49,490 bases of DNA, taken from assembly GCA_002707365.1 (NCBI GenBank), contig PAMQ01000007.1, forward strand, positions 304,833 through 354,322, given 5' to 3'. The translations under genes were made by a program, and so were the position numbers. Shown here piece by piece: positions 1,377 to 15,048 of the stretch. The notes under the pieces were generated by a model, which had not been told where the DNA came from, ran no database searches, and saw only the letters and a program-made list of their open reading frames with translations. The DNA is from Trueperaceae bacterium (GTDB taxonomy: Bacteria > Deinococcota > Deinococci > Deinococcales > Trueperaceae). Each line of letters opens with the position of its first letter. Position 1 is the first letter of the stretch.

Positions 1377-2540
1377 ATGAGTGATGCAATTATTCCACCG
1401 CACGGTGGGGCCCTCATACAACGAACGCTAACCGGTAACGATCGTAAGAAGGCAATTGAGATTGGCTCGAAAGCAATTTCAGTAGTGCTATCAGAACGCG
1501 GCCTGCATGATCTCGAGTGTCTAGCTACTGGAGTGTATAGCCCCCTTGACGGTTTTGTAACCGAGGAGGCATATTACACTATCCTCGATAAGCTCAGACT
1601 ACCGACCGGTGTAGTTTGGAGCATTCCTATCACTCTACAAATCTCTGAGCAAGAAGCGATAGGCATAGAACCCGAAGCAGAAGTTGCCCTTCGACACCCA
1701 AACGGTACTGTACTTGCACTCATCAGAGTCACGGATGTCTATCGCCCTAACCAGTCTGTCGAAGCCAAAAAAGTCTATGGCACAACCGACGGAAACCACC
1801 CTGGGGTTGCTGCGATGATTTCTGCTGGAACTGTCTACCTAGGTGGACCAGTTCATCTTATTAACAGCTTCTCGAGCAGTCCGTTCCCCAACCAAAGCTT
1901 TACACCCGAGAAAACTCGTACTGAATTTGCTAACAGGGGGTGGAGCACTGTAGTTGCCTTCCAAACACGTAATCCTATTCATCGAGCTCACGAATACTTA
2001 ACCAAAGTTGCACTCGAAAATGTCGACGGGCTTTTTATTAATCCTCTTGTAGGAAGCACGAAATCCGACGACATTCCAGCTGATGTTCGTATGCGCTGTT
2101 ATCAAACACTGCTGAAGAATTACTATCCTGAAAACCGCGTATTTTTAGGGACTTACCCTGCTGCTATGCGTTACGCAGGTCCACGGGAAGCTATTTTGCA
2201 TGCAATATCACGCCAGAATTACGGCTGTACCCATTTTATTGTTGGTAGAGACCATGCTGGAGTAGGTGATTACTACGGGACATATGAGGCTCAACAAATT
2301 TTTGAGCGATTTAGTCGAAAGGAATTGCATATCGAACCACTAAAGTTCGAGCATGCCTTCTTTTGTAAAGTTTGTGGTCAAATGGCTTCCCAAAAAAGCT
2401 GCCCCCATGGTGGAGACAATCATGTTTTTCTTTCTGGTACAAAGGTCCGAGAACTTCTTGCGACTGGTAAGAAACCACCAAGTCAATTTACACGGCCTGA
2501 AATTGCTGAGATCCTAATCGAAACCCAGAGGGCTTCTTAA
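1377..2540 (+). CDS. sat: Sulfate adenylyltransferase (ATP sulfurylase)
   Basis: The protein has 387 residues and is a single-chain ATP sulfurylase that makes adenosine 5'-phosphosulfate (APS) from ATP and sulfate. The nucleotide-binding motif [13 protein letters not shown] is at 196-208 and [12 protein letters not shown] at about 290-301. A zinc site C330-x2-C333-x8-C342 with nearby H344 resembles the zinc-binding module of the Thermus enzyme. There is no fused APS-kinase domain. The stop codon overlaps the cysC start (TAATG), so the two are translationally coupled. Dissimilatory use is unlikely because no aprAB or dsr genes are present. Next to cysC, the product is most likely passed on to PAPS. 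Confidence 0.96.
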
Positions 2541-3154
2541 TGTCTATACCAACAGACAACATTGTTTGGCATAGCCACCGTATAACCCAAAATGACCGAG
2601 CCGGCACTAAACACCAGCGCCCTGCGATCTTATGGCTAACAGGAATGTCCGGTGCTGGAAAGTCCACACTCGCTAATGCTCTCGAGAGCCACTTGCACAA
2701 ATTAGGACACCACACCTATATTCTTGATGGTGATAATGTTCGACACGGCCTCAACAAAGATTTGGGATTCTCCGACGAGGACAGAGTAGAGAACATTCGC
2801 CGTATTGGTGAAGTATCGAAATTGTTCTTGGACTCTGGACTCATTGTAATGACTGCTTTTATTAGTCCATTTCGAGCTGATCGCGATCTTGTTAGAGGAC
2901 TTGTTGGTGACGGCGAATTTATCGAAGTATTCGTTCATGCACCCCTTAACATCCTTGAAAAAAGAGATCCTAAGGGTCTCTATAAGAAAGCAAGATCCGG
3001 AGAGATTTCTAACTTTACCGGTATAGACTCACCTTACGAAAACCCTGAAAACCCCGAAGTGTTCATCGATACTTCTAAACTCTCTATCGAAGACAGCGTG
3101 AAAACCCTTATGGATTATCTAGAATCCGTAGGTGCCTTCACTAAAGCCAAATAA
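2540..3154 (+). CDS. cysC: Adenylylsulfate (APS) kinase
   Basis: The protein has 204 residues and phosphorylates APS to PAPS with ATP. The P-loop GMSGAGKST lies at 35-43, and the APS-binding stretch [10 protein letters not shown] at about 62-71. The family segments [10 protein letters not shown] and [14 protein letters not shown] are present, with Asp-Pro-Lys as in functional kinases. The gene overlaps sat by one base. No cysH (PAPS reductase) follows. The next genes converge on it and include a sulfotransferase, so PAPS is more likely used for sulfation than for assimilation. The first 25 residues are a variable extension usual for bacterial CysC. Confidence 0.96.
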
Positions 3155-3309: not shown

Positions 3310-4893
3310 CTAAGACTCACCATTACGGATAGCTGAATACGATTCCGAACGAATAAGATTAAGCCCAAGTGTCATTGGTGCCAAAACTCCAACGAAGAAA
3401 AAGGTAAAATCTGGAAGGTTAAGTATAATTGGTAACAAACCGTACGTGAGACCCCAAATCCCACCCCAACGGAATCCAATTAGCAAAATTCCTACAGTGA
3501 CCCACAATGCCGCTATCGCACCGAAAATACCGTGCTGAAAAGCCATTTGTAACACAAAATTATGAGCATGCTTTGGAAAGAATGGACGGTGTTTTCCAAT
3601 GAAGTTGTCTTCAAGCATGGAATCAAACGATTGCGAAGTCCCGGTAATAGGATTCTTGAAAGCTGAAGCCAAAGCATAACGCCAAATTTCTGGTCTTGAC
3701 ATTTGACTTGAGGAATCTTCTTTAGATGCTGGTACAAGACTAAGTCGCTCAGAAATTATGGGTACAAGGCTAAGTCGCTCAGAACCACTTGTAGCAACAA
3801 AGTACAATCCAGCGTTAACAAAAATCACTGCACCAATTGCAAGAAACATCCAACGGCGGGACAAACGCAACAACGCCCACATGACTAAAACAAAATTGAT
3901 CATGATCCAAGAAATGCGACTACCTGTCAAACCAATACCAACCATAGTAACCAAAGCCCCAACAACTGAAAATGGTGCGGGTAACAAGAGTGTAGTGGCG
4001 CCGAGCAAGCCAATAGTATGACCGTCAAGATTGGGATGGTTAGTAATAACATGTTGACGTTTTTTGCTCCAGGGTAAAAACCCCTGATTTGCGACTAAAT
4101 CACTTTTCCCCAGCCTGAATACCAATTGCTCTTTAGGTGCCACCGGCTGCCGGGAGTTTACAGAGGAGCCTTCCAATTTCTGCACACTAATCCCAACCGA
4201 TTTAAAATCTTTTACTAACTGCCACCCGCCCATAACTTCCTCTTCAACCGTTAAATAATTAATCCAGATTTCTGAACCAATAAATCCCGATAAACCGATA
4301 CGCAGTTCCCTAGAATTAACACCTTCAGGAACCCGCCATACAAGTTCAAGCTCACTCCATTCATTTGTTGCTTGAACCGGCAGTGAACTATAAGCACCAA
4401 AAGGATTGGCAGCTAACAGGCTTAAAAACCCACCCCTTGTCGAGCCAGTCTTGAGTGAAATTGTGACTCGGAAGTTCCGACCCTTAATAGGGTTACCATC
4501 TCGAAAGGTCTGATAGATAAACTCGCGGTTTCCACTAGGGAAAGAATCGGCCTCGACAACGATCCAACTCTGCTCATAATCACTTGGTTCAATAACACTG
4601 TTAGAAGCGCCCCAAAAACTTTGCCATTGTCGGGCTTGTGACCACGAGTGAATGGCCAGAGTCGTAACTAAAACAGCTAGTATTGCAAATGCAAGATAGG
4701 ACCAGATTTTACGAAAGTAGGAAAAAGCTAGTCCTAGAAATATCGCGAAAAGAGCCTGAAAAAACCACATTACGGCCTGAGATATATCTCCGGACATGAG
4801 AGAGGCGACTACAACCCAGAAAGCAAATCCTCCCCATAACATCGTCCACGGCATGATCGAACGGAACAATTCAGCTAAGTGCTTATAAGTCAA
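3310..4893 (-). CDS. O-antigen ligase/Wzy-type membrane protein with inserted jelly-roll-like ectodomain
   Basis: The protein has 527 residues. About three to four hydrophobic segments fill residues 10-85. A soluble extracytoplasmic part follows (about 100-285), then about five more membrane segments. The segment KHAHNFVLQMAFQHGIFGA is the histidine-bearing loop typical of the Wzy_C/O-antigen ligase family, which joins or polymerises lipid-linked glycans on the outer face of the membrane. Residues about 105-225 are rich in beta strands, with phrases such as WSELELVWRVPEG that resemble CBM4/9-like jelly-roll domains. A similar insertion occurs in the fusion protein at 9965. The start is TTG at 4891-4893, 8 nt after the glycosyltransferase stop. 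Residues near 375-395 carry a tandem 10-residue duplication (SERLSLVP twice). Ligase versus polymerase cannot be decided. Confidence 0.75.
   Translation of the reverse strand: MTYKHLAELFRSIMPWTMLWGGFAFWVVVASLMSGDISQAVMWFFQALFAIFLGLAFSYFRKIWSYLAFAILAVLVTTLAIHSWSQARQWQSFWGASNSVIEPSDYEQSWIVVEADSFPSGNREFIYQTFRDGNPIKGRNFRVTISLKTGSTRGGFLSLLAANPFGAYSSLPVQATNEWSELELVWRVPEGVNSRELRIGLSGFIGSEIWINYLTVEEEVMGGWQLVKDFKSVGISVQKLEGSSVNSRQPVAPKEQLVFRLGKSDLVANQGFLPWSKKRQHVITNHPNLDGHTIGLLGATTLLLPAPFSVVGALVTMVGIGLTGSRISWIMINFVLVMWALLRLSRRWMFLAIGAVIFVNAGLYFVATSGSERLSLVPIISERLSLVPASKEDSSSQMSRPEIWRYALASAFKNPITGTSQSFDSMLEDNFIGKHRPFFPKHAHNFVLQMAFQHGIFGAIAALWVTVGILLIGFRWGGIWGLTYGLLPIILNLPDFTFFFVGVLAPMTLGLNLIRSESYSAIRNGES
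3731..3784 (-). repeat. 30-bp tandem duplication inside the Wzy-type gene
   Basis: A 24-base unit beginning ggtacaagrctaagtcgctc occurs at 3731-3754 and again at 3761-3784 with one mismatch, a period of 30 bp. It stays in frame and duplicates ten residues of the membrane protein (SERLSLVPII, SERLSLVPAS). It looks like recent slippage. Confidence 0.85.
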
Positions 4894-4901
4894 AGTATCA
4901 T

Positions 4902-6044
4902 CTACCGATTATCATCAAAAGATGCTTTGAATTCGTGATAACGCTTGGACACAAAATCAGAAATCTCTTTACGGAAACGTTCTTCGCCAAAGCGGAGAGC
5001 GTTTTGTCTTATGACGTTTGGCAAAAACGCATCACGGTGATCTTCAAAAATCGAGATCGCATCGATCAAACTATCAATCGATTGTTCAGTAAATAAAATG
5101 CCTGTCGGATCCTTTTGTCCAAGATTAACTACTGAATCCAAGATGCCTCCCCTACCGTAAGCAATGACCGGTGTCCCACACGCCTGAGCCTCTACTGGCA
5201 AAATGCCAAAGTCCTCCTCGGCAGCAAAGATGAAAGCAGAAGCTAACCGCATATGATGCTGTAAGGTTTCCGGCGGCTGGTAACCCAAAATAGAAACATT
5301 TGGTCCAGCCAGTGACTCAATTCTCTTCCGCTCAGGACCATCGCCTATAACAATAAGTCTCCGTTCCGGCATCTTCGAAAAAGCTTCAACAATGAGATCT
5401 ACCCTTTTGTAAGGAACAAGTCGAGATGCAGCCAAAAAATAGGGCTTCTTGTCAGGTTGTAGTTGGAAAGCATCAGTATTAACCGGGGGATGAATAACCC
5501 GTGCTTCCCTCCGGTAAACTTTTCGGATCCGCCGAGCAACAAACCTTGAATTTGCCAAAAAGTGATCTACCCCAGGGGCTGTACGGACATCCCATATACG
5601 GAGCCAGTGTAAAAGTAACCGCAATACCCAACTTCTAGGCCCCCGGCTTAGACTATGTTCACGTAAGTATTGCACCTGCTGGTCCCAAGCATAACGAAGA
5701 GGAGAATGTACATAACTAACATGTAGTTGGTCAGGTCCAGTAATTACACCTTTTGCCACAGCGTGCGAACTCGATAAAACAAGATCATAACCTGATAGAT
5801 CTAACTGTTCCACCGCTAGCGGCATAAGATTGAGATACCATCGGAATCCTCGTTTAGCAAAAGGAAGTCGTTGAATAAATGAGGTGTGAACGAACCTACT
5901 TCGAAGGAACTCTCGTTCGTGACCAGGCAAAAAATCTACGATGCTATATAAGTCGGCGTCAGGAAAAACAAGTAACAACTGTTCAAGAACTCGTTCAGAA
6001 CCAGCATAAGTTACCAGCCAATCGTGCACTATAGCGACCTTCAC
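4902..6044 (-). CDS. Glycosyltransferase family 4
   Basis: The protein has 380 residues and shows the GT-B layout of retaining GT4 enzymes. The N-terminal Rossmann half starts MKVAIVHDWL with the acceptor-side loop YAGSERVLEQL. The C-terminal donor-binding half has RLVPYKRVDLIVEAF, VIGDGPERKRIE and the EX7E signature in EEDFGILPVEAQACGTPVI. It would transfer a nucleotide-activated sugar to a lipid-linked intermediate on the cytoplasmic face; donor and acceptor are unknown. Mannose is possible because manC is in the same locus. The start is GTG, overlapping the sulfotransferase stop by 4 bases (GTGA), so the two are translationally coupled. Confidence 0.92.
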   Translation of the reverse strand: MKVAIVHDWLVTYAGSERVLEQLLLVFPDADLYSIVDFLPGHEREFLRSRFVHTSFIQRLPFAKRGFRWYLNLMPLAVEQLDLSGYDLVLSSSHAVAKGVITGPDQLHVSYVHSPLRYAWDQQVQYLREHSLSRGPRSWVLRLLLHWLRIWDVRTAPGVDHFLANSRFVARRIRKVYRREARVIHPPVNTDAFQLQPDKKPYFLAASRLVPYKRVDLIVEAFSKMPERRLIVIGDGPERKRIESLAGPNVSILGYQPPETLQHHMRLASAFIFAAEEDFGILPVEAQACGTPVIAYGRGGILDSVVNLGQKDPTGILFTEQSIDSLIDAISIFEDHRDAFLPNVIRQNALRFGEERFRKEISDFVSKRYHEFKASFDDNR

Positions 6045-6904
6045 GATTTTCGCCCTTCAGAATAACCCCAGATACCTGGTAAATCGATGCCGATCAACTC
6101 TGCCGTTGCAGTAACGTCTGGCCGAAAGATCTCCGTGAGCCTTGCTCGCATAACTTCTGACAGGAGTGGCCTCTCATCAGGCCGAAAGGACCTATATAAC
6201 AACCTTTGGATCCCACGTGATGCCTTGATTTGACCGACCTGCCGAGCAAACCCCCACTTCCTCGCCAAATTAGCCCCCGACTTAATCAAACGGGAAAGAT
6301 GTGACGAGCGTGAAGTTGAAGCAGGGAGCGTTTTACTATGTAGGTATTTTGGAATGATTAACGGCTGAACTCCTAGAAAAGAAAAAACATCTTGGGAAAA
6401 CTGTACCGGGTTATCTTCCAACGAATCAAAAAGACAGATGTGGATTTTGCTTTTACTGAATATTTCCAAATAGGAACGTAAGTGGGACCAATACATTCCA
6501 TGAGCAAGGAAACTCGAGTGTTCTTCCAATGCACTCTCGAAACAAGGACTACAAAGTCCGTGTTTACGAAGATAAAGAAATGCAGAAAAAGCCCGTGCAA
6601 CGGGCTCCCTCAAACAAACCATCAAACGAACGTCTGGAATTAAATTAACCATCCTCTCAGCCGCTTTCAAAGAAAAAAGGTAATCGTGGGAAATCTCACC
6701 AACAACCCTATAACCTTTGGCCCCTTCAAATTGCCGACTGTACCAGTCAACTCCCCTGTGAAAAAAGCGGTCAAAGAAATATAGATCCTTCGCTGGAGTT
6801 ATATAGGTTTCGGGATGCCATTTAAGAACCTGGAAAAGCCATGACGAACCGGCCTTGCTAGGACCTAGATAGATGAAATTGGGTAATGGCGACACTGTCT
6901 TCAC
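6041..6904 (-). CDS. PAPS-dependent sulfotransferase (carbohydrate type)
   Basis: The protein has 287 residues and belongs to the Sulfotransfer family. The 5'-phosphosulfate loop is GPSKAGSSWL (residues 14-23), the bacterial/heparan-type form of the P-loop. The 3'-phosphate-binding motif is CLREPVARAFSAFLYL (97-112), with conserved Arg99 and Ser107. It would move sulfate from PAPS to a hydroxyl, most likely on the polysaccharide made here, because it lies between glycosyltransferase and Wzy genes and overlaps the GT4 gene. PAPS would come from sat-cysC, 3 kb away. Start choice is unsure: GTG at 6902-6904 has no spacing for its AGGTGAG, and GTG three codons later fits a Shine-Dalgarno better. 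There is no signal peptide, so it is cytosolic. Confidence 0.88.
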   Translation of the reverse strand: MKTVSPLPNFIYLGPSKAGSSWLFQVLKWHPETYITPAKDLYFFDRFFHRGVDWYSRQFEGAKGYRVVGEISHDYLFSLKAAERMVNLIPDVRLMVCLREPVARAFSAFLYLRKHGLCSPCFESALEEHSSFLAHGMYWSHLRSYLEIFSKSKIHICLFDSLEDNPVQFSQDVFSFLGVQPLIIPKYLHSKTLPASTSRSSHLSRLIKSGANLARKWGFARQVGQIKASRGIQRLLYRSFRPDERPLLSEVMRARLTEIFRPDVTATAELIGIDLPGIWGYSEGRKS

Positions 6905-6965
6905 CTCACCTGTTTAACCTTATCTGCCCTGAAGCAGTGATACCAGTATTAAGCGCCACATCCTG

Positions 6966-8345
6966 TCACTCCTCAAATAGCATTCGAGCTTTGCGAACTA
7001 ATCCATAAGCAGATCCAACAAAAATCCCAACAGGAATAATCAAACTTGGGGCTCCAAGTCCGTGATCAAAAAGAGCCCCAACAAGAACAAAGACTATCAG
7101 TCCCTGACAAGCGAAAAGATAAGCATGTGTTAAGCCTGGCCCAACCAATCGCTTTCTTGCTATACCAAGGCTACGAAAAATCATTAACCAGACCAAAAGA
7201 AGTAACGTTAAACCCGTGACACCCAACTCGGCTAATAAATGAAGATATGAATTATGGGCAGAGAGATCACTAATTACTCTATCCCCTTTAGTAGCAAAGT
7301 AGACCAACCCACGATGGCCAATGAATCCCGTGTTCATATCATTAAAGCGACCAAATCCAATGCCGAATATTGGACTATCTATAAAGAGGCGACTGGCATA
7401 AGTCCAATAAAGCATGCGAACCATAAGATTGTGATTCTCCCCAACATAAAGACGTTCTCTACCAGGCATCCATTGTCTACGCTGAGCAGTAAGAATCGCC
7501 GATGAAATAACCTCCTCTGTAAATACATCTTTAGTACGTTGAAAAGTCTGAGGTGCAACAATCGGTAACGAAACCAAGGTGATTAAGATAATCAAGGCTC
7601 CCGTAATTAGACTACGAATTCGCCAATTTCTCACCAGATACCACAAGAGCGCAACCGCAAACGCCACAAGAGCTTGACGCGAAGCCGTGCCGAAAACAAC
7701 AAACACAAGTCCTCCAGCAAGAAACACCAGGGCCCATCTACGAGTCTCTAACCCAATGATCAAAAAAAGTGTAGCAAGCACACCGAAAAATAGCCCTGCC
7801 GTATTGTGCATAGCATGAAATCCAACAAAATCATCCGCGGTTCCACCTGAAAGAAATTTTGGGTGATAAAACCACCAAATTACGAACAAACCAATTGCAT
7901 ACCCCCCAATAACCATCGCGCTCTTTAAAGCACTGTGAACGTATCGCATGTTCACAGGCATCAAAGTAAAGAACAAAAGCGGTAGATAGGCAACGAAAAT
8001 CTTTCCATCACCATCGAAAAATCCGAGATTAAGAAGGTCTGCCGGGTGGATCCCACCAACTGTAACACCAATTAAAAGCCAGTAAAACAAATTTAAAAGG
8101 ACAATCAAAGAAACTCGATTAATGTGGCTTCTATAGAGACACAAGGCCAAAATAATGCCTAATACAGTAAGAACTAATCCTATCAGAACCGGTAACTTTA
8201 TTCGTAAAAAGAAAACTCCCCAGAGGAGAAGGAACGAAGTTAAGCTAATTAGGCTTATGCTGGCATTATTTGAGACCCAGGTAAATACGAATCGCATACA
8301 TCCCAGGGCAAGCGCCAACCAGCCAGGAAGGTTATTGGTGTTCAA
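6966..8345 (-). CDS. O-antigen ligase/Wzy-family membrane protein
   Basis: The protein has 459 residues and is hydrophobic throughout, with about eleven to twelve membrane segments. One larger extracytoplasmic loop (about 265-360) carries FGIGFGRFNDMN and ends in SAHNSYLHLLAELGVTGL. That His-containing Wzy_C motif is the signature of O-antigen ligases and related polymerases. Unlike its two paralogues in this locus, it has no jelly-roll insertion. The start is TTG at 8343-8345, overlapping the flippase stop (TTGA). It is probably the locus polymerase or ligase; which of the three does which job cannot be read. Confidence 0.82.
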   Translation of the reverse strand: MNTNNLPGWLALALGCMRFVFTWVSNNASISLISLTSFLLLWGVFFLRIKLPVLIGLVLTVLGIILALCLYRSHINRVSLIVLLNLFYWLLIGVTVGGIHPADLLNLGFFDGDGKIFVAYLPLLFFTLMPVNMRYVHSALKSAMVIGGYAIGLFVIWWFYHPKFLSGGTADDFVGFHAMHNTAGLFFGVLATLFLIIGLETRRWALVFLAGGLVFVVFGTASRQALVAFAVALLWYLVRNWRIRSLITGALIILITLVSLPIVAPQTFQRTKDVFTEEVISSAILTAQRRQWMPGRERLYVGENHNLMVRMLYWTYASRLFIDSPIFGIGFGRFNDMNTGFIGHRGLVYFATKGDRVISDLSAHNSYLHLLAELGVTGLTLLLLVWLMIFRSLGIARKRLVGPGLTHAYLFACQGLIVFVLVGALFDHGLGAPSLIIPVGIFVGSAYGLVRKARMLFEE

Positions 8346-9685
8346 GGTACTGGAACTTCGAGACGTCGAATAGTCCGATTTGCCCTTACCACTGAAATTA
8401 GGTTCTTGAAAGCAAGGGTAATAGAAACAGCTATAGCAATTCCTATCGTTTCCGATCTACCGCCAAGGAAAATACCTAGCGTTAAAGTAAGGACCAGGGT
8501 GATAAAGCTTGCAGATATTTCAAATCTTTCCGCGTTAGTCATCAAGTTGAAGAATTCCCCCAAACCCATACTTGATTTTATCAACTGCCCAACAGCAAGA
8601 ATAACCACGAGAGGGAATGCTTGGGTAAAGTCTGGACCCGATAGACCAAGGAAAAATTTACCTGCTCCAATAAAAACTAGGAAAATAGGTAGATACAAGG
8701 CCACTGCATAAATCCGCGTTTGCAAGAAATGACGCCGAAGTAAGGTCGCTTTCCGACGCGTGAAATCTCGCACGAAAATCGGTGAGTAAACACTTTGTAA
8801 CGCGGTAAAGAGTATTCCGACCTGAGCAACCAACTGGTAGGACACGCCAAAGTAACCCACTTCTTCCGGAGAAGCAAAAAATGACACGAGAATAATTGGT
8901 ACACGAAGGTTTGCCTGATTAGAAAGATCTATCAACCAAAACCGAGCCGCCACGGCATTAGTCCCTAATTCCGAAGAAGCGACAGGATAGTGCTTTGAAG
9001 ATTTTGCCTCACGTCGGGTTAAGCGCAGTCCATAATCGGCCAGCCCTACTGCAATGATGGCTACTGAGAAGAGCGCGATGGAAAAACCAACAATAAGGCC
9101 TCCTGTTGAGACCGGACCTTCGAAAGAAAACAGGTGGGTCACTAACCCCAGCAATAGCAACAGTGGTGCGGCACCGAATTGCAGGAACAAACCCAGGACC
9201 GGCTTACCTTGCCCCTTAAGGACCGAAGTAGCAATTAGTAGCACTGCCATAGGAACTGCTGATGCTGTAATCGCCACGACGAGCCAGCCCAACTCTAAAT
9301 CACGAAAAATAAGTCCAGCAATCGGGTTGCGCCATGCGAAGGCCAAGATAGCAATAATTAATGTCCCAAAAAAGGGAATCCCTAAAGACCGCTTCCAATA
9401 TCGGTAGGCCTCAAAGTGATCGTTTCGCTCCAAAGCAGTGGCTATTGCTCGAAGGGATAATGTTGGGTAACCGAACGCCCCGAAGGTAGCTGTGATCTGC
9501 AACCAGGATAAGTAGAGCAAGAAAATACCAACACCAGACGCCCCAATAGTTCTCCCTAGAACCACCGCAATAAGAAGATATTGGAGGCCACCCGATAAAA
9601 TCCGAGTAGAATAAGTCGATGTAACAGCCGGTATCGTACTGTTCTTAATTCGGTTCAGTAGCGTCTTGATATCTGATACATTCAT
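8342..9685 (-). CDS. Polysaccharide flippase (Wzx/MATE-like, MVF superfamily)
   Basis: The protein has 447 residues with about twelve to fourteen hydrophobic helices and few long loops. The opening region, with YLLIAVVLGRTIGASGVGIFLLYLSW, resembles RfbX/Wzx and PST family exporters that flip undecaprenyl-linked oligosaccharide across the membrane. It is the first gene of the minus-strand block, so the promoter should lie in 9686-9964, back to back with the fusion gene. The start is ATG at 9683-9685 with no clear Shine-Dalgarno. The family assignment is good; the substrate is inferred from context. Confidence 0.82.
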   Translation of the reverse strand: MNVSDIKTLLNRIKNSTIPAVTSTYSTRILSGGLQYLLIAVVLGRTIGASGVGIFLLYLSWLQITATFGAFGYPTLSLRAIATALERNDHFEAYRYWKRSLGIPFFGTLIIAILAFAWRNPIAGLIFRDLELGWLVVAITASAVPMAVLLIATSVLKGQGKPVLGLFLQFGAAPLLLLLGLVTHLFSFEGPVSTGGLIVGFSIALFSVAIIAVGLADYGLRLTRREAKSSKHYPVASSELGTNAVAARFWLIDLSNQANLRVPIILVSFFASPEEVGYFGVSYQLVAQVGILFTALQSVYSPIFVRDFTRRKATLLRRHFLQTRIYAVALYLPIFLVFIGAGKFFLGLSGPDFTQAFPLVVILAVGQLIKSSMGLGEFFNLMTNAERFEISASFITLVLTLTLGIFLGGRSETIGIAIAVSITLAFKNLISVVRANRTIRRLEVPVP

Positions 9686-9964
9686 GTTGGTTTTATCCGT
9701 ACTATTAAAAGTACCAATTAGACACGAAAGTCCTTAAATAATACCTTTTCACTATTGGTATTGGATTTGAATTAGCAGAGCGAGAGCCTGTCAAGAACAC
9801 AAAAATCTGCATTATGCCTTCGAAAGCTAAACATAAACTTTCCAACTTGGGATACACGTGTGGCCGAAAAAAACAGTGGATGTTAAAGACACAAGTATAG
9901 AAATAATATCTTATTGTTGAGATAATACCGCTAGCGCCAACCACCATTTGGGGATGATACCGCG

Positions 9965-12900
9965 ATGATCATAAGGGGAACAGCATTCCTTCTAGGTTTT
10001 GGAATTACCTTTTTTCCTACTATCATCCCACCCCTTGCAGCCCTTTTCTACTTTTTTTCCCGTCGAGAACAACTCAATCGGATTGACGGCCTTTGGGCCA
10101 TAGCGGTACTACTGTCTGCTACAAGCTGGGGATGGCATGGTGGGTTATCGGGTGCTGCTTTCGGAGCATTACAAATATTGGGGGCTTGGCTCGTATATAA
10201 AGCCTTTGCTAATCTACGTTCTACCCAAACCTGGATAATCAATTCAAAAAATATTGGCAACGGACTGCTTACCGGCTTAGCAACGATCGTGGCTCTTGGT
10301 TGGTTGCAAATCGACCAAGTTAACTTTGCAATGAAAACCCTCGCCCAAGCAATAGTTTGGGAAAACACTCCCGCGCTTTATGGACACACAATTTTGGTAC
10401 TGGGTAGCCTCATCGCTATCCTCTCACCAACATACCGGCTCCGACTCTTAAGTTTGACCTTATCCTCCTTGGGAATCCTCACTTCAGGAAGCAGAGAAGC
10501 CGCGTTGGCCTGGATCTTTGTAGCAGTAATTCTCGTATTCCTAGGACCTAAAAGATCCATTTATAAACGCCTGATAGAGATTTTCTTGATCAGTATAGTA
10601 CTAGCCATAACAGCTGGACTTGGCCCGTTACTAGGCTGGGGACGCATCGGATTTTTATTGCATGTAGAACCTGACCCAAACCGAATCAATTTATTCCAGG
10701 GGACAGAAGTGCCCAACGGAGATTGGTGGGACGATTCGCAAGTCATTGTCGCCAGTAGCAAAGTCAATATCGGAAAACATGAACTGACGAGCTATCACGT
10801 AACCAAATCAGGATCGGAATCCTGGCGAAGATTACAACAAATAGTTCCAATAAAGCCCAATGAGCCCTATACACTAAGCGCTTGGGTTCGACCAGAAAAT
10901 GGCAGCTGGCCAAGCTTACAGGGATGGGGAAAATTCAACGATAATGGGTCTCCAGAAACATTTGGCTTGACTATCTCACTCACATCAAACAAAATCCAAG
11001 TCTCAGCGAATCAACTCGGCCAGATCGTTGATGCTCAAATCATCGAACGTTATGAAGAATGGTCTCGACTTGCTGTGACATTTGAGTTCCTTGGGAACGC
11101 AGAGAAGCTTTACTGGTATGTAGGATTAGCCCCAGAAAGTAGACCGAGCAAGGGGGGTTCAGCTACATTCGCCGGATTCCAACTAGAACAAGGAGAATCG
11201 GCTACACCCTATGTTCCCGGCCCAAATACAGAGGGACTTAATTTCCGACTAGCTAGGGTCCCGTACTGGAAAGCGGCCTTAAAGGGGATCTCTCAGCAGC
11301 CTCTGCTTGGGTGGGGAGCAAACTCATTCCCAGACTTCTTTGAGGATCTACTTCCTGAACAAAACTTACTTCATCCAGTCCCTACCCATACCCACAACCT
11401 TCTCCTTCAGGTCATGTTTGAACGTGGCATTCTGGGTTTACTAAGTTTACTTGCCTTGCTTCTAGTCATCTGCTGGAAAGCACTTAAGCGGGGCGATCTG
11501 ATTTTTTTGGCAGTCTTCGGAGCAATATTATTCGCTAACATGTACGATTACACTCTTTTCTACGGAGGAGTTTTATATCCTCTCGTAGCTGTAGCTGGTT
11601 GGCTGGGGACACATATTGCACCCAAAGAGGTCAGGATTGATACAGCTTCGAAACAACTTAGCGTCAGGTTAATACTTGCTTTAGTAGACCTCCTAGTGAT
11701 CATTACCTCAATGCTTGCAATCTGGGTAATCCAGAAGTGGTTGGGGGGCAACCTAGAAGTATTTTCAACAATTCTCGAGAAACCAACAACATCGCTTTAT
11801 CTATTCTTGATATGGCCCCTTATGGCCTGGCGAGAAGGCCTCTACCCGGGATATGGCCTCACCGCTCCTCAGGAGCTAAAGAAACAGATTTCAACTACAA
11901 CTGTAAGCAGTGTAATTTTCTCCTTAGCAGCAGTTTTCCTATTGGGGGTATCGAAATTCCCTGGATCAGTAATGTTGTTGGTTCTTTTGTTGAGCTTCAT
12001 TCTATTACCTATGAGCCGAGCTTTGACCAAACGATTTTTGTTGAAAACTCACCTTTGGGGGGAGCCAGTTCTAATCATAGGTGCAAGCGCACTAGGACAG
12101 CGCATTGGTCAAGCACTCCGCGACTCACCACTTGACGGCCTACACCCAGTTTGCTTTTTTGATGACGACATAGCAAAATCTAGCACCTCTTTATGTGGTT
12201 TACCTATTCAGGGCAAAATTATTGAAGCGGAGGAATTCGCTATTAAACATGGTATTCATCGTGCTGTCATCACCTTAAACAATCCAACTGCGAACTCTCC
12301 TTCTAATATCGCTAAGCTGAAGAGTCCGATATTCGAGAAAGTCCAATTTATACCTGACCTACCTCATCTACCTGTTTCAGGGATCCAGTCTGGATCCCTG
12401 AAAGACCTCCTTACTCTCGAAGTGACAAACACGCTAAACTTTCCAATTAATCAGTTTATTAAGAGGCTACTCGATTTAGTGGGGTCGACCCTTGGAATTC
12501 TACTGTTGAGTCCATTAGCTTGCCTAGTAGGGTTAGTCATATATTTTGAATCACCTGGTCCTATATTTTATCGAAGCAAAAGAATCGGCCGCAATGGAAA
12601 AAAGATCTCTGTTTGGAAATTTCGTACTATGGTCCCTGGAGCCGACCATAGACTTACGACATTGTTACGAGAAAATGAAGATCTCCGAGCAGAGTGGCTA
12701 ACCAATCAGAAGCTGCAAGAAGATCCGCGCATCACCAACGTCGGACATATTTTACGTAAAACCAGCTTCGACGAACTTCCCCAATTATGGAACGTAATAA
12801 TTGGAGAAATGAGCCTCGTGGGTCCTCGGCCAATCGTAAATGATGAAATCCAGAAGTACGGTACTGCTTTCAAGTTTTATAAGATGGTTCGACCAGGTAT

Positions 12901-13057
12901 AACCGGTCACTGGCAAGTCTCAGGGCGGAGCGAAACTAGCTATAACCAACGCGTAGAACTGGATACGTTTTACGTGCGAAATTGGTCTATTTGGCTCGAT
13001 ATACATATTATCGTAAAAACTTTTGAAGTAGTTCTTCGACGTGATGGTGCCTATTAA
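9965..13057 (+). CDS. Fusion: Wzy/O-antigen ligase domain + jelly-roll insertion + WbaP-type sugar-phosphate transferase
   Basis: The protein has 1030 residues in one uninterrupted frame. Residues 1-240 are membrane helices of an O-antigen-ligase-like protein. Residues about 241-421 form a soluble beta-rich segment ([23 protein letters not shown]...ATPYVPG) resembling CBM4/9-type jelly rolls. Residues about 425-550 resume the Wzy_C part with [21 protein letters not shown]. From about 565 a complete WbaP/WcaJ-like priming transferase follows: four to five helices, a Rossmann-like segment [14 protein letters not shown] (about 700), then the catalytic domain from [12 protein letters not shown] (about 833) with [39 protein letters not shown] and SLVGPRPIV. 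The latter family loads a sugar-1-phosphate onto undecaprenyl phosphate. One chain thus links glycan initiation to outer-face ligation or polymerisation. A perfect 29-nt palindrome lies at 12375-12403. Confidence 0.85.
12375..12403. repeat. Perfect 29-nt palindrome inside the fusion gene
   Basis: Two 14-base arms (left arm TTTCAGGGATCCAG, 12375-12388) are exact reverse complements around a single central T at 12389. The palindrome encodes residues about 804-813, between the Rossmann-like segment and the catalytic domain of the transferase half. In RNA it would form a strong hairpin in the middle of a coding sequence. Confidence 0.95.
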
Positions 13058-13946
13058 TTTAGAGTACTTAACCGCTACAACCCGGGAGACGCCGTACGAT
13101 AAACTAACTTCTGTGAAGGTCAAGACCCACCACACTTCTCGCAGCAAGCTTGTCTTAGACTTCATCGATTACCTAAGTAGGCCAATTTACTGGCTCTACG
13201 AACGCCAACTACTTCGTACCGTAAAAAAACAAATAGTTTTGCCAAGCCACATCGGAATCATTATGGACGGTAACCGCCGATTTGCCCGCAACTTCGGGCT
13301 CGACGCGAGAGCCGGTCATAATTACGGAGCCGATAAAGCAAGAGAAGTACTCAACTGGTGTCTTGAACTTGGCATACGTCATGTAACTCTATGGGGGTTC
13401 TCAACCGACAATCGAAACCGGACGCAAAAAGAAGTTGATCATTTACATCTCCTGTTTGCAGAACAGGCTAGATTGATGCTTGAAGATCAGGAACTACACC
13501 AGAAGGGTGTGCGAATTCGTATTATCGGGAACATCAACAATTTCCCTGAAGCCTCTAAGGTAGCGCTAAGAGAAATGGAGCGAGCCACTCAAAACTACCG
13601 TGGCCTAAACCTTAATGTTGCTCTCGGATACGGCGGCCGAGAAGAAATCGTATCTGCCATGAAAAAGCTTCTTGAACAGAAAAATGAGGAAGGTATATCT
13701 CTAGAACAATTAACGCAAAGTCTTGATGCGCACGACATTGGACACCACCTCTACACCGCAGGCATACCTGACCCAGACTTCGTCATTCGGACCAGTGGCG
13801 AGATTCGACTCTCTGGGTTTCTACTTTGGCAAACAGCTTACAGCGAATTTTACTTTTGTGACGCTTTCTGGCCAAACTTTAGAAAAATAGATTTCTTGCG
13901 AGCTCTAAGGCATTTCCAAGCGCGAGAACGCCGGTTCGGACAGTAG
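13044..13946 (+). CDS. uppS: Isoprenyl transferase (undecaprenyl diphosphate synthase family)
   Basis: This cis-prenyltransferase of about 300 residues elongates farnesyl or geranyl diphosphate with isopentenyl diphosphate to the polyprenyl carrier of cell-surface glycans. The catalytic stretch IGIIMDGNRRFAR has Asp near residue 75. WGFSTDNRNR and the C-terminal DFVIRTSGEIRLSGFLLWQTAYSEFYF are family signatures. About 60 residues precede the core, including YLSRPIYWLYERQLLR, as in the Rv1086-type branch rather than E. coli UppS. The start overlaps the end of the fusion gene: GTG 13041, ATG 13044 or GTG 13047 are all possible, and none has a good Shine-Dalgarno. The overlap suggests co-production with the glycan-priming enzyme. 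Chain length of the product is unknown. Confidence 0.9.
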   Translation: MVPINLEYLTATTRETPYDKLTSVKVKTHHTSRSKLVLDFIDYLSRPIYWLYERQLLRTVKKQIVLPSHIGIIMDGNRRFARNFGLDARAGHNYGADKAREVLNWCLELGIRHVTLWGFSTDNRNRTQKEVDHLHLLFAEQARLMLEDQELHQKGVRIRIIGNINNFPEASKVALREMERATQNYRGLNLNVALGYGGREEIVSAMKKLLEQKNEEGISLEQLTQSLDAHDIGHHLYTAGIPDPDFVIRTSGEIRLSGFLLWQTAYSEFYFCDAFWPNFRKIDFLRALRHFQARERRFGQ

Positions 13947-13994
13947 CTTAGTCTTTGACAAAAGCCTCGTACTGAAGTTGTCTCATAGATCGTC

Positions 13995-14000
13995 TACAAT
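13995..14000 (+). promoter_or_regulatory. -10 box of manC (leaderless layout)
   Basis: TACAAT ends 7 nt before the ATG at 14008, the spacing expected if transcription begins at the start codon itself. No Shine-Dalgarno is present. The position also argues for ATG 14008 over the in-frame TTG 13978 or ATG 13999. Confidence 0.45.
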
Positions 14001-14007
14001 GTCCAGC

Positions 14008-15048
14008 ATGCGGAAATTTGTCGCGGTCATTCTAGCTGGCGGAAAAGGCCAACGCTTTTGGCCATTGTCAACCAGTGATAAACCCAAACAGTTTCTCGAT
14101 TTAACCCAGTGCGGACGTACGCTAATTCAGGCCACTTTTGACCGGATCCTCTCCCTAACCGGTGGACCAGAAACGATTCTGGTTGCGACAGCTGGGGAGT
14201 ATGAGGCCCTAGTCCGTGCACAACTTCCTGAATTACCGGAAAATAACCTTCTCATAGAACCTGTTAGCCGAGACTCAGCACCGGCAATCGCCTTAACCTC
14301 ACTCGAACTTCGTCAGCGCTACGGGGATGTTACAACTGGCTTCTTTCCTTCTGACCACAGTATTGGCCAACCTAATAAGTTCAGAAGAACACTCCAAAAT
14401 GCAATTAATTTATCTGAAAAAGAAAATTCTCTCATCACCATTGGTATAAACCCGACACGCCCAGCGACAGGCTATGGATACATCGAAAAGGGATTACCGT
14501 CGGGACCAGGCTTCAGAATAAAAGGGTTTTTTGAAAAACCTGATCTCAACGACGCTAAGACCTACCTCGCTACTAATCGCTACATTTGGAACTCCGGCAT
14601 TTTCGTGTGGCCAGTGGATACAATACTCGAAGAACTTGACAGACATGCCCCAGAATTGATGACTCCCTTGAGACGAGCTTTCAAACAAAAACGTGTAGCT
14701 GAGATATTCCCCAATCTCAAAAAAATCAGTATTGACCACGCAGTTATGGAGCACACCAACAAAGCCTACGTCATTCCTAGTGAATTCGAGTGGGATGATA
14801 TTGGTGACTGGCTAGCCCTGGAACGCCTATTTAAACAAAATGACCCGGAAGACAATACAGTTCTAGGTCGCCATATTGGATTTGAGACGTCTAGAAGCGT
14901 TATCTACTCAGAGAACCCTGATGACGTAATCGTTACCCTTGGCGTCAACGATCTTATCGTGATCAAACGAGGTAATGCTGTGCTGGTAATGAACAAAGAA
15001 CATGAGCAGGATATTAAGGAAATCATAAACGACGCATTGGTTACATAA
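14008..15048 (+). CDS. manC: Mannose-1-phosphate guanylyltransferase
   Basis: This enzyme of 346 residues makes GDP-mannose from GTP and mannose 1-phosphate. The nucleotidyltransferase signature VILAGGKGQRFWPLSTSDKPKQFL begins seven residues after the chosen start. Later family blocks FPSDHSI, GYGYIEKG, FFEKPD, WNSGIFVW and EWDDIGDW are present. There is no C-terminal phosphomannose isomerase domain, so it is the short, monofunctional form. The frame is open back to TTG 13978, but the start at 14008 (MRKFVAVILAGG) matches the family and a leaderless promoter. GDP-mannose would feed the neighbouring glycosyltransferases or be turned into GDP-fucose or rhamnose. Confidence 0.93.
   Translation: MRKFVAVILAGGKGQRFWPLSTSDKPKQFLDLTQCGRTLIQATFDRILSLTGGPETILVATAGEYEALVRAQLPELPENNLLIEPVSRDSAPAIALTSLELRQRYGDVTTGFFPSDHSIGQPNKFRRTLQNAINLSEKENSLITIGINPTRPATGYGYIEKGLPSGPGFRIKGFFEKPDLNDAKTYLATNRYIWNSGIFVWPVDTILEELDRHAPELMTPLRRAFKQKRVAEIFPNLKKISIDHAVMEHTNKAYVIPSEFEWDDIGDWLALERLFKQNDPEDNTVLGRHIGFETSRSVIYSENPDDVIVTLGVNDLIVIKRGNAVLVMNKEHEQDIKEIINDALVT

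Follow-up and report, generated by a model that had tools for sequence, protein, structure and literature searches.

A single gene in a Trueperaceae genome (G000) encodes a chain of 1030 residues, in which a Wzy/O-antigen ligase-type membrane half, interrupted by a β sandwich, is followed by a WbaP-type phosphoglycosyl transferase (PGT). The gene starts with ATG and occupies 9965..13057 on the forward strand of the window, the whole stretch of 49,490 nucleotides that was analysed. We consider it somewhat probable (about 0.55) that the product is a bifunctional enzyme: it would initiate a lipid-linked glycan on the inside of the membrane and handle the same reducing-end sugar-PP-lipid on the outside.

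The Pfam domains follow one another in the order Wzy_C (in two stretches), CoA_binding_3, and Bac_transf. The transferase half begins with a four-helix membrane bundle (residues 569-697; 11669..12055), continues with the CoA_binding_3 domain, the "DUF" domain of WbaP (residues 698-826; 12056..12442), and ends with the monotopic PGT catalytic domain (residues 827-1030; 12443..13054), all on the forward strand. The Pfam matches themselves cover residues 631-772 for CoA_binding_3 and residues 833-1024 for Bac_transf, the latter with an E-value of 1.8e-64. The WbaP model TIGR03022 of NCBIfam matches residues 571-1030 with 450.4 bits against a cut-off of 403 bits, over the full length of the model (positions 1-456), and all 15 full-length members of the family match it. 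In a profile of these 15 relatives, residues 560-1027 align to the complete solved WbaP chains 8t53 and 9s7s with an E-value of about 1e-114. The Asp-Glu dyad, which is catalytic in this family, corresponds to D936-E937 (12770-12775, forward strand) and is invariant in 15 of 15 members. Judged from its sequence, the region of residues 569-1030 is a complete WbaP-type large PGT. It is the only PF02397 enzyme in the whole genome; two PF00953-type enzymes are encoded elsewhere.

The N-terminal half consists of membrane helices with the first Wzy_C stretch (residues 1-235; 9965..10669) and, after the insertion, the second Wzy_C stretch (residues 429-548; 11249..11608). The Pfam Wzy_C model matches best at residues 430-495, with 52.2 bits against a cut-off of 31.7 bits, and it matches all 15 full-length members at E ≤ 0.01. 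With the family profile, residues 431-540 align to the oligosaccharyltransferase 9rmk and to the O-antigen ligase 7tpg. When residues are paired by counting along the printed alignment with 7tpg, R177 (10493-10495), R431 (11255-11257), and H477 (11393-11395) fall on Arg191, Arg265, and His313 of WaaL. In the O-antigen ligase, the two arginines bind the diphosphate and the histidine activates the acceptor (PMC10920833). H475, H477, E178, and H141 are invariant in the 15 members and R431 is kept in 14 of them; R177 is found in only 9, being replaced by Leu, Gly, or His in the other 6. The second Wzy_C stretch, with a mean pairwise identity of 45.8%, is the best conserved part of the chain after the PGT catalytic domain. 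The window protein carries the catalytic residues of both halves.

The two halves are joined by a linker of about 20 residues (549-568; 11609..11668), which is predicted to be cytoplasmic. The charge pattern of the loops fits a location of the insertion and H477 outside the membrane and of the linker inside. The predicted position of the linker agrees with the N-terminus of WbaP, which is cytoplasmic. In the structure model of the whole chain, the Wzy half has about 11 membrane helices, as compared with 12 in O-antigen ligase, where the histidine lies in the large periplasmic loop; this model (mean pLDDT 83, pTM 0.63) leaves the mutual placement of the two halves unsettled. The possibility that the PGT is translated on its own, from a start within the gene, was rejected: residues 540-600 of the window gene include no start codon in frame that is accompanied by a Shine-Dalgarno-like stretch, and no such start near the junction is conserved. 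The single frame of 1030 residues proposed in the preliminary description is confirmed, as are its assignments of a Wzy/ligase-type domain and a WbaP-type priming transferase.

The insertion (residues 236-428; 10670..11248, forward strand) had been described as a jelly roll, and this holds. Modelled alone, it forms a confident 11-strand β sandwich (pLDDT 91.3), the predicted fold of which is like that of CBM4/16/22/27; solved structural neighbours of the model are phage tail fibres and CBM22/27/16/4. NF048003, the NCBIfam model for a head spike fibre domain of phages and gene transfer agents (GTA), matches residues 238-418 with 49.5 bits against a cut-off of 36 bits, and reaches E ≤ 0.001 in only 8 of the 15 full-length members. 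CBM_4_9 (21.9 against 25.9 bits) and Laminin_G_3 (22.1 against 27.6 bits) stay below their Pfam cut-offs. The head spike fibre of RcGTA is known to bind cells better when capsular polysaccharide is present (PMC10218006). The insertion resembles this domain in its match to NF048003, but it sits in a membrane enzyme and its sugar binding is putative. No match to it was found by tblastn against phage records, in which a phage origin was looked for. The insertion is present in 14 of the 15 members and is cleanly missing from that of G011 (827 residues). Therefore, it is a separable domain that is dispensable for the fusion. Predicted to lie on the outer face, it probably binds the glycan product or the acceptor.

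NF048003 also matches residues 134-227 of a free-standing Wzy_C protein of 535 residues from another family (L056, 6507-8111), where the domain occupies a different loop. Therefore, β-sandwich domains of this type occur repeatedly in Wzy_C proteins of the phylum Deinococcota. In the window itself, residues about 110-245 of a separate Wzy_C protein of 527 residues resemble, by eye, another β sandwich; the putative sandwich is in the loop before the Wzy_C region, a position that differs from that in the fusion. G017 has, near its fusion, a free-standing Wzy-plus-β-sandwich half of 531 residues as well (L044:13220-14812).

The end of the fusion gene is overlapped by uppS, for undecaprenyl-diphosphate synthase (13041..13946, forward strand), the only such gene found in the genome, and this is followed on the same strand by a mannose-1-phosphate guanylyltransferase-like gene (13978..15048). 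Near the fusion, uppS is found also in G002, G003, G011, G012, and G021, and the guanylyltransferase-like gene in G002, G009, G011, and G012; in all of these genomes one or both genes lie downstream of the fusion. Upstream, the opposite strand carries genes for a Wzx-type flippase (8342..9685; Polysacc_synt, just below the Pfam cut-off), two separate Wzy_C proteins, a GT4 glycosyltransferase, and a sulfotransferase. The Wzy_C protein of 459 residues (6966..8345, reverse strand) is a candidate polymerase, the gene of which overlaps the flippase gene; the other is the 527-residue protein mentioned above (3310..4893, reverse strand). Genes for ATP sulfurylase and APS kinase (1377-3154) are in the same cluster as that for the sulfotransferase (6041-6904), and these sulfate genes suggest a sulfated surface glycan. 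Directly before the window (L038:15800-19999) are genes of dTDP-sugar type, namely for an RmlD-like protein, two epimerase/dehydratases, and a nucleotidyltransferase, which probably belong to the same glycan cluster.

A lipid A operon is located elsewhere in the same genome (L091, G000:C19:14000-33900, positions 4861-11716). It contains genes for LpxD-like, LpxC, GFO/IDH/MocA oxidoreductase, FabZ, LpxA, LpxB-like, and ABC transporter proteins. LpxC was found in 35 of the 39 Trueperaceae genomes and in genus g25 of the family f4; it was not found in the Thermus and Deinobacterium control genomes. The presence of LPS as the driver of the fusion was rejected, for LpxC is also found in families in which the genes are unfused. 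Within Trueperaceae, 17 of the 39 genomes are without the fusion and most of these have LpxC; therefore, LPS does not require the fusion.

The bifunctional reading might work as follows, both activities and the topology being those expected from the families. On the cytoplasmic side, the PGT half would initiate the glycan, which would next be handled by other glycosyltransferases and the Wzx flippase. On the outer side, the N-terminal Wzy_C half would then take this same reducing-end sugar-PP-undecaprenyl as its donor and transfer the glycan to an acceptor, so that undecaprenyl diphosphate would be freed near the site where the next chain starts. Since both halves would meet the same reducing-end sugar, there may be reason for them to stay together, and the fusion might channel the undecaprenyl carrier, a coupling that the preliminary description itself presented as inference. 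Coupling has precedents in the concerted action of WecP and Wzy in Aeromonas (PMC4498686), in a loop of WbaP whose deletion alters the chain length of O-antigen, according to work cited in PMC10030265, and in the bimodular ligase WadA. As to the transfer itself, a lipid A-core ligase-type reaction is slightly favoured over polymerization or transfer to protein, because of the histidine at H477 and the lipid A operon; the presence of this operon makes a WaaL-type acceptor plausible. The identity of the acceptor, the binding of sugar, and an advantage of coupling are to be understood as putative. Directly observed are the domain content, the intact active-site residues, the conservation of the fusion, and the single-copy initiator; the proximity of the sole PF02397 gene to the sole uppS gene of the genome, which adjoin, supports the bifunctional reading. 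The replacement of the R177 equivalent in 6 of the 15 members, and weak matches to TfpM, a model for O-linking oligosaccharyltransferases, in 10 of the 15, speak against it.

A less probable reading makes the outer-face half a Wzy, a repeat-unit polymerase that would join units at the sugar first placed by the PGT half; the fusion would then keep a matching initiator and polymerase together. Such matching of initiator and polymerase is known from Aeromonas (PMC4498686). The fused Wzy is linked to the initiator and not to core genes, and most other Trueperaceae members have Wzz-type regulators, which act with Wzy. However, at the acceptor-activating position the fusion has a His, like O-antigen ligases, whereas the polymerase families of the clan mostly carry Asp/Glu in its place (PMC10920833). 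Each of the three Wzy_C proteins encoded in the genome has a His in or near the H477 position; therefore, this residue does not discriminate between ligase and polymerase within this genome. The presence in the window of a separate Wzy_C gene, overlapping that of Wzx, argues against a polymerase role of the fusion, as does the result that no Wzz (PF02706) match was detected in the whole genome. The idea that the fusion stands in for the missing Wzz was rejected, as most relatives match Wzz.

It is unlikely that the outer-face half is an oligosaccharyltransferase attaching the glycan to envelope proteins such as S-layer proteins or pilins. By E-value, the nearest solved relative is indeed the oligosaccharyltransferase 9rmk, and the weak TfpM matches point in the same direction. 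The ligase 7tpg, however, matches the same region almost equally, and neither an acceptor protein nor a sequon was identified.

Still less probable seems a chain in which the PGT half alone is catalytic, the Wzy-plus-β-sandwich half serving as a membrane anchor or as a glycan-binding sensor that controls initiation. The loss of R177 in some members and the two further Wzy_C proteins of the genome would fit such a role, and activation by a partner protein is known for EpsZ, an enzyme of WbaP type (PMC12802240). Against this, H475, H477, E178, and H141 remain invariant, and R431 nearly so, over members of 33-50% identity, and conservation of the C-terminal Wzy_C stretch is second only to that of the PGT catalytic domain.

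Whether the two halves form one chain was examined in 111 genomes of the phylum Deinococcota, including 39 of Trueperaceae. A single frame crosses the junction in 20 of the 39 Trueperaceae genomes, belonging to 14 genera (G000, G001, G002, G003, G004, G009, G011, G012, G013, G014, G017, G019, G021, G026, G027, G028, G029, G031, G035, and G036). Internal stops are absent, and some frames are truncated at contig ends. A strong match is absent in 17 of the 39 genomes; G016 and G030, with a scaffold gap and a contig end, respectively, are uncountable either way. In the other families of the order, the transferase is free-standing in 39 genomes, mostly with 480-550 residues. Several of them (for example, L056, L057, and L058) have a separate Wzy_C gene behind that of the transferase, so that the gene order, with the transferase first, is the reverse of that within the fusion. 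The preliminary description had called for a survey of this domain order, and had named beforehand, as findings against it, close relatives with genes split near residue 560 and an assembly join. The close relatives are fused with an unbroken frame, and split genes occur only in the other families of the order.

The sole apparent split inside Trueperaceae is that of G016, the PGT of which begins directly after a gap of 100 N in the scaffold. The tree of the transferase half places 19 fused sequences together with that of G016 in a single group (99/96), which is separate from the free-standing transferases of other families. The AU test rejects a strict fused-only clade because G016, the only row breaking that clade, falls inside it; this is the sequence that starts after the gap. 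The distances of the two halves are correlated (r 0.80), as expected if the halves were inherited together. One fused group and correlated halves mean that the fusion most likely arose once, within Trueperaceae. A joining of two genes by an assembly or sequencing artefact has a negligible probability: the junction is crossed by an unbroken frame in 20 genomes that represent 14 genera and share about 33-49% identity, which excludes chance or mis-assembly, the GC content is uniform over both halves, and the only odd case is G016 with its gap ahead of the PGT. Outside this survey, a contig search with the single window protein gave one relative of the fusion, an uncultured Trueperaceae record, and among 1037 matches in plasmid records none spans 80% of the fusion.

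Several known systems resemble parts of this protein. WbaP (TIGR03022; PDB 8t53) shares the four helices, the CoA_binding_3 domain, and the Asp-Glu catalytic domain with residues 560-1027, but the fusion adds a complete Wzy_C membrane enzyme at the N-terminus. WaaL (PDB 7tpg; CAZy GT121) and other Wzy_C proteins have in common with it the two Wzy_C stretches, the two arginines, and the histidine; unlike WaaL, the fusion has a β sandwich of about 190 residues between the stretches and a priming transferase, and its ligase role is putative. WadA of Brucella and Mesorhizobium is a bimodular O-antigen ligase with a GT25 core glycosyltransferase (PMC10920833). An O-antigen ligase-type domain is joined to a second glycan enzyme in both proteins; the partner in the fusion is, however, a chain-starting PGT and not GT25, no domain of which is among its Pfam matches. 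Bi-PGTs, in which a functional domain is fused to a monotopic PGT (PMC10942596), are also similar, since the present chain combines an additional functional domain with a monotopic PGT. It differs from them in that its PGT is a complete large PGT and its partner works on the opposite face of the membrane. No PGT-Wzy or PGT-ligase fusion was found in the literature searches, outside the scope of which lay the main Bi-PGT survey. Thus, PGT fusions and a bimodular ligase are already known, and the pairing of a large PGT with Wzy_C, surveyed here in Deinococcota, is apparently new, as it was not found described.

An open question, studied for the most part with complexes that are weak or transient, is how the start of lipid-linked glycans is matched to their completion and how cells share the scarce undecaprenyl carrier. 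With a natural and conserved fusion that is present in a single copy, such coupling becomes directly testable by mutating or separating the halves; structural studies of a Wzy_C enzyme beside its priming transferase would also gain a stable protein. The chain might even be a single device for a processive carrier-lipid cycle, with the start inside and the release outside performed by the same polypeptide, which we regard as doubtful. If this is the case, initiation would be matched to completion, the carrier would stay local, and the β sandwich would sense the product.
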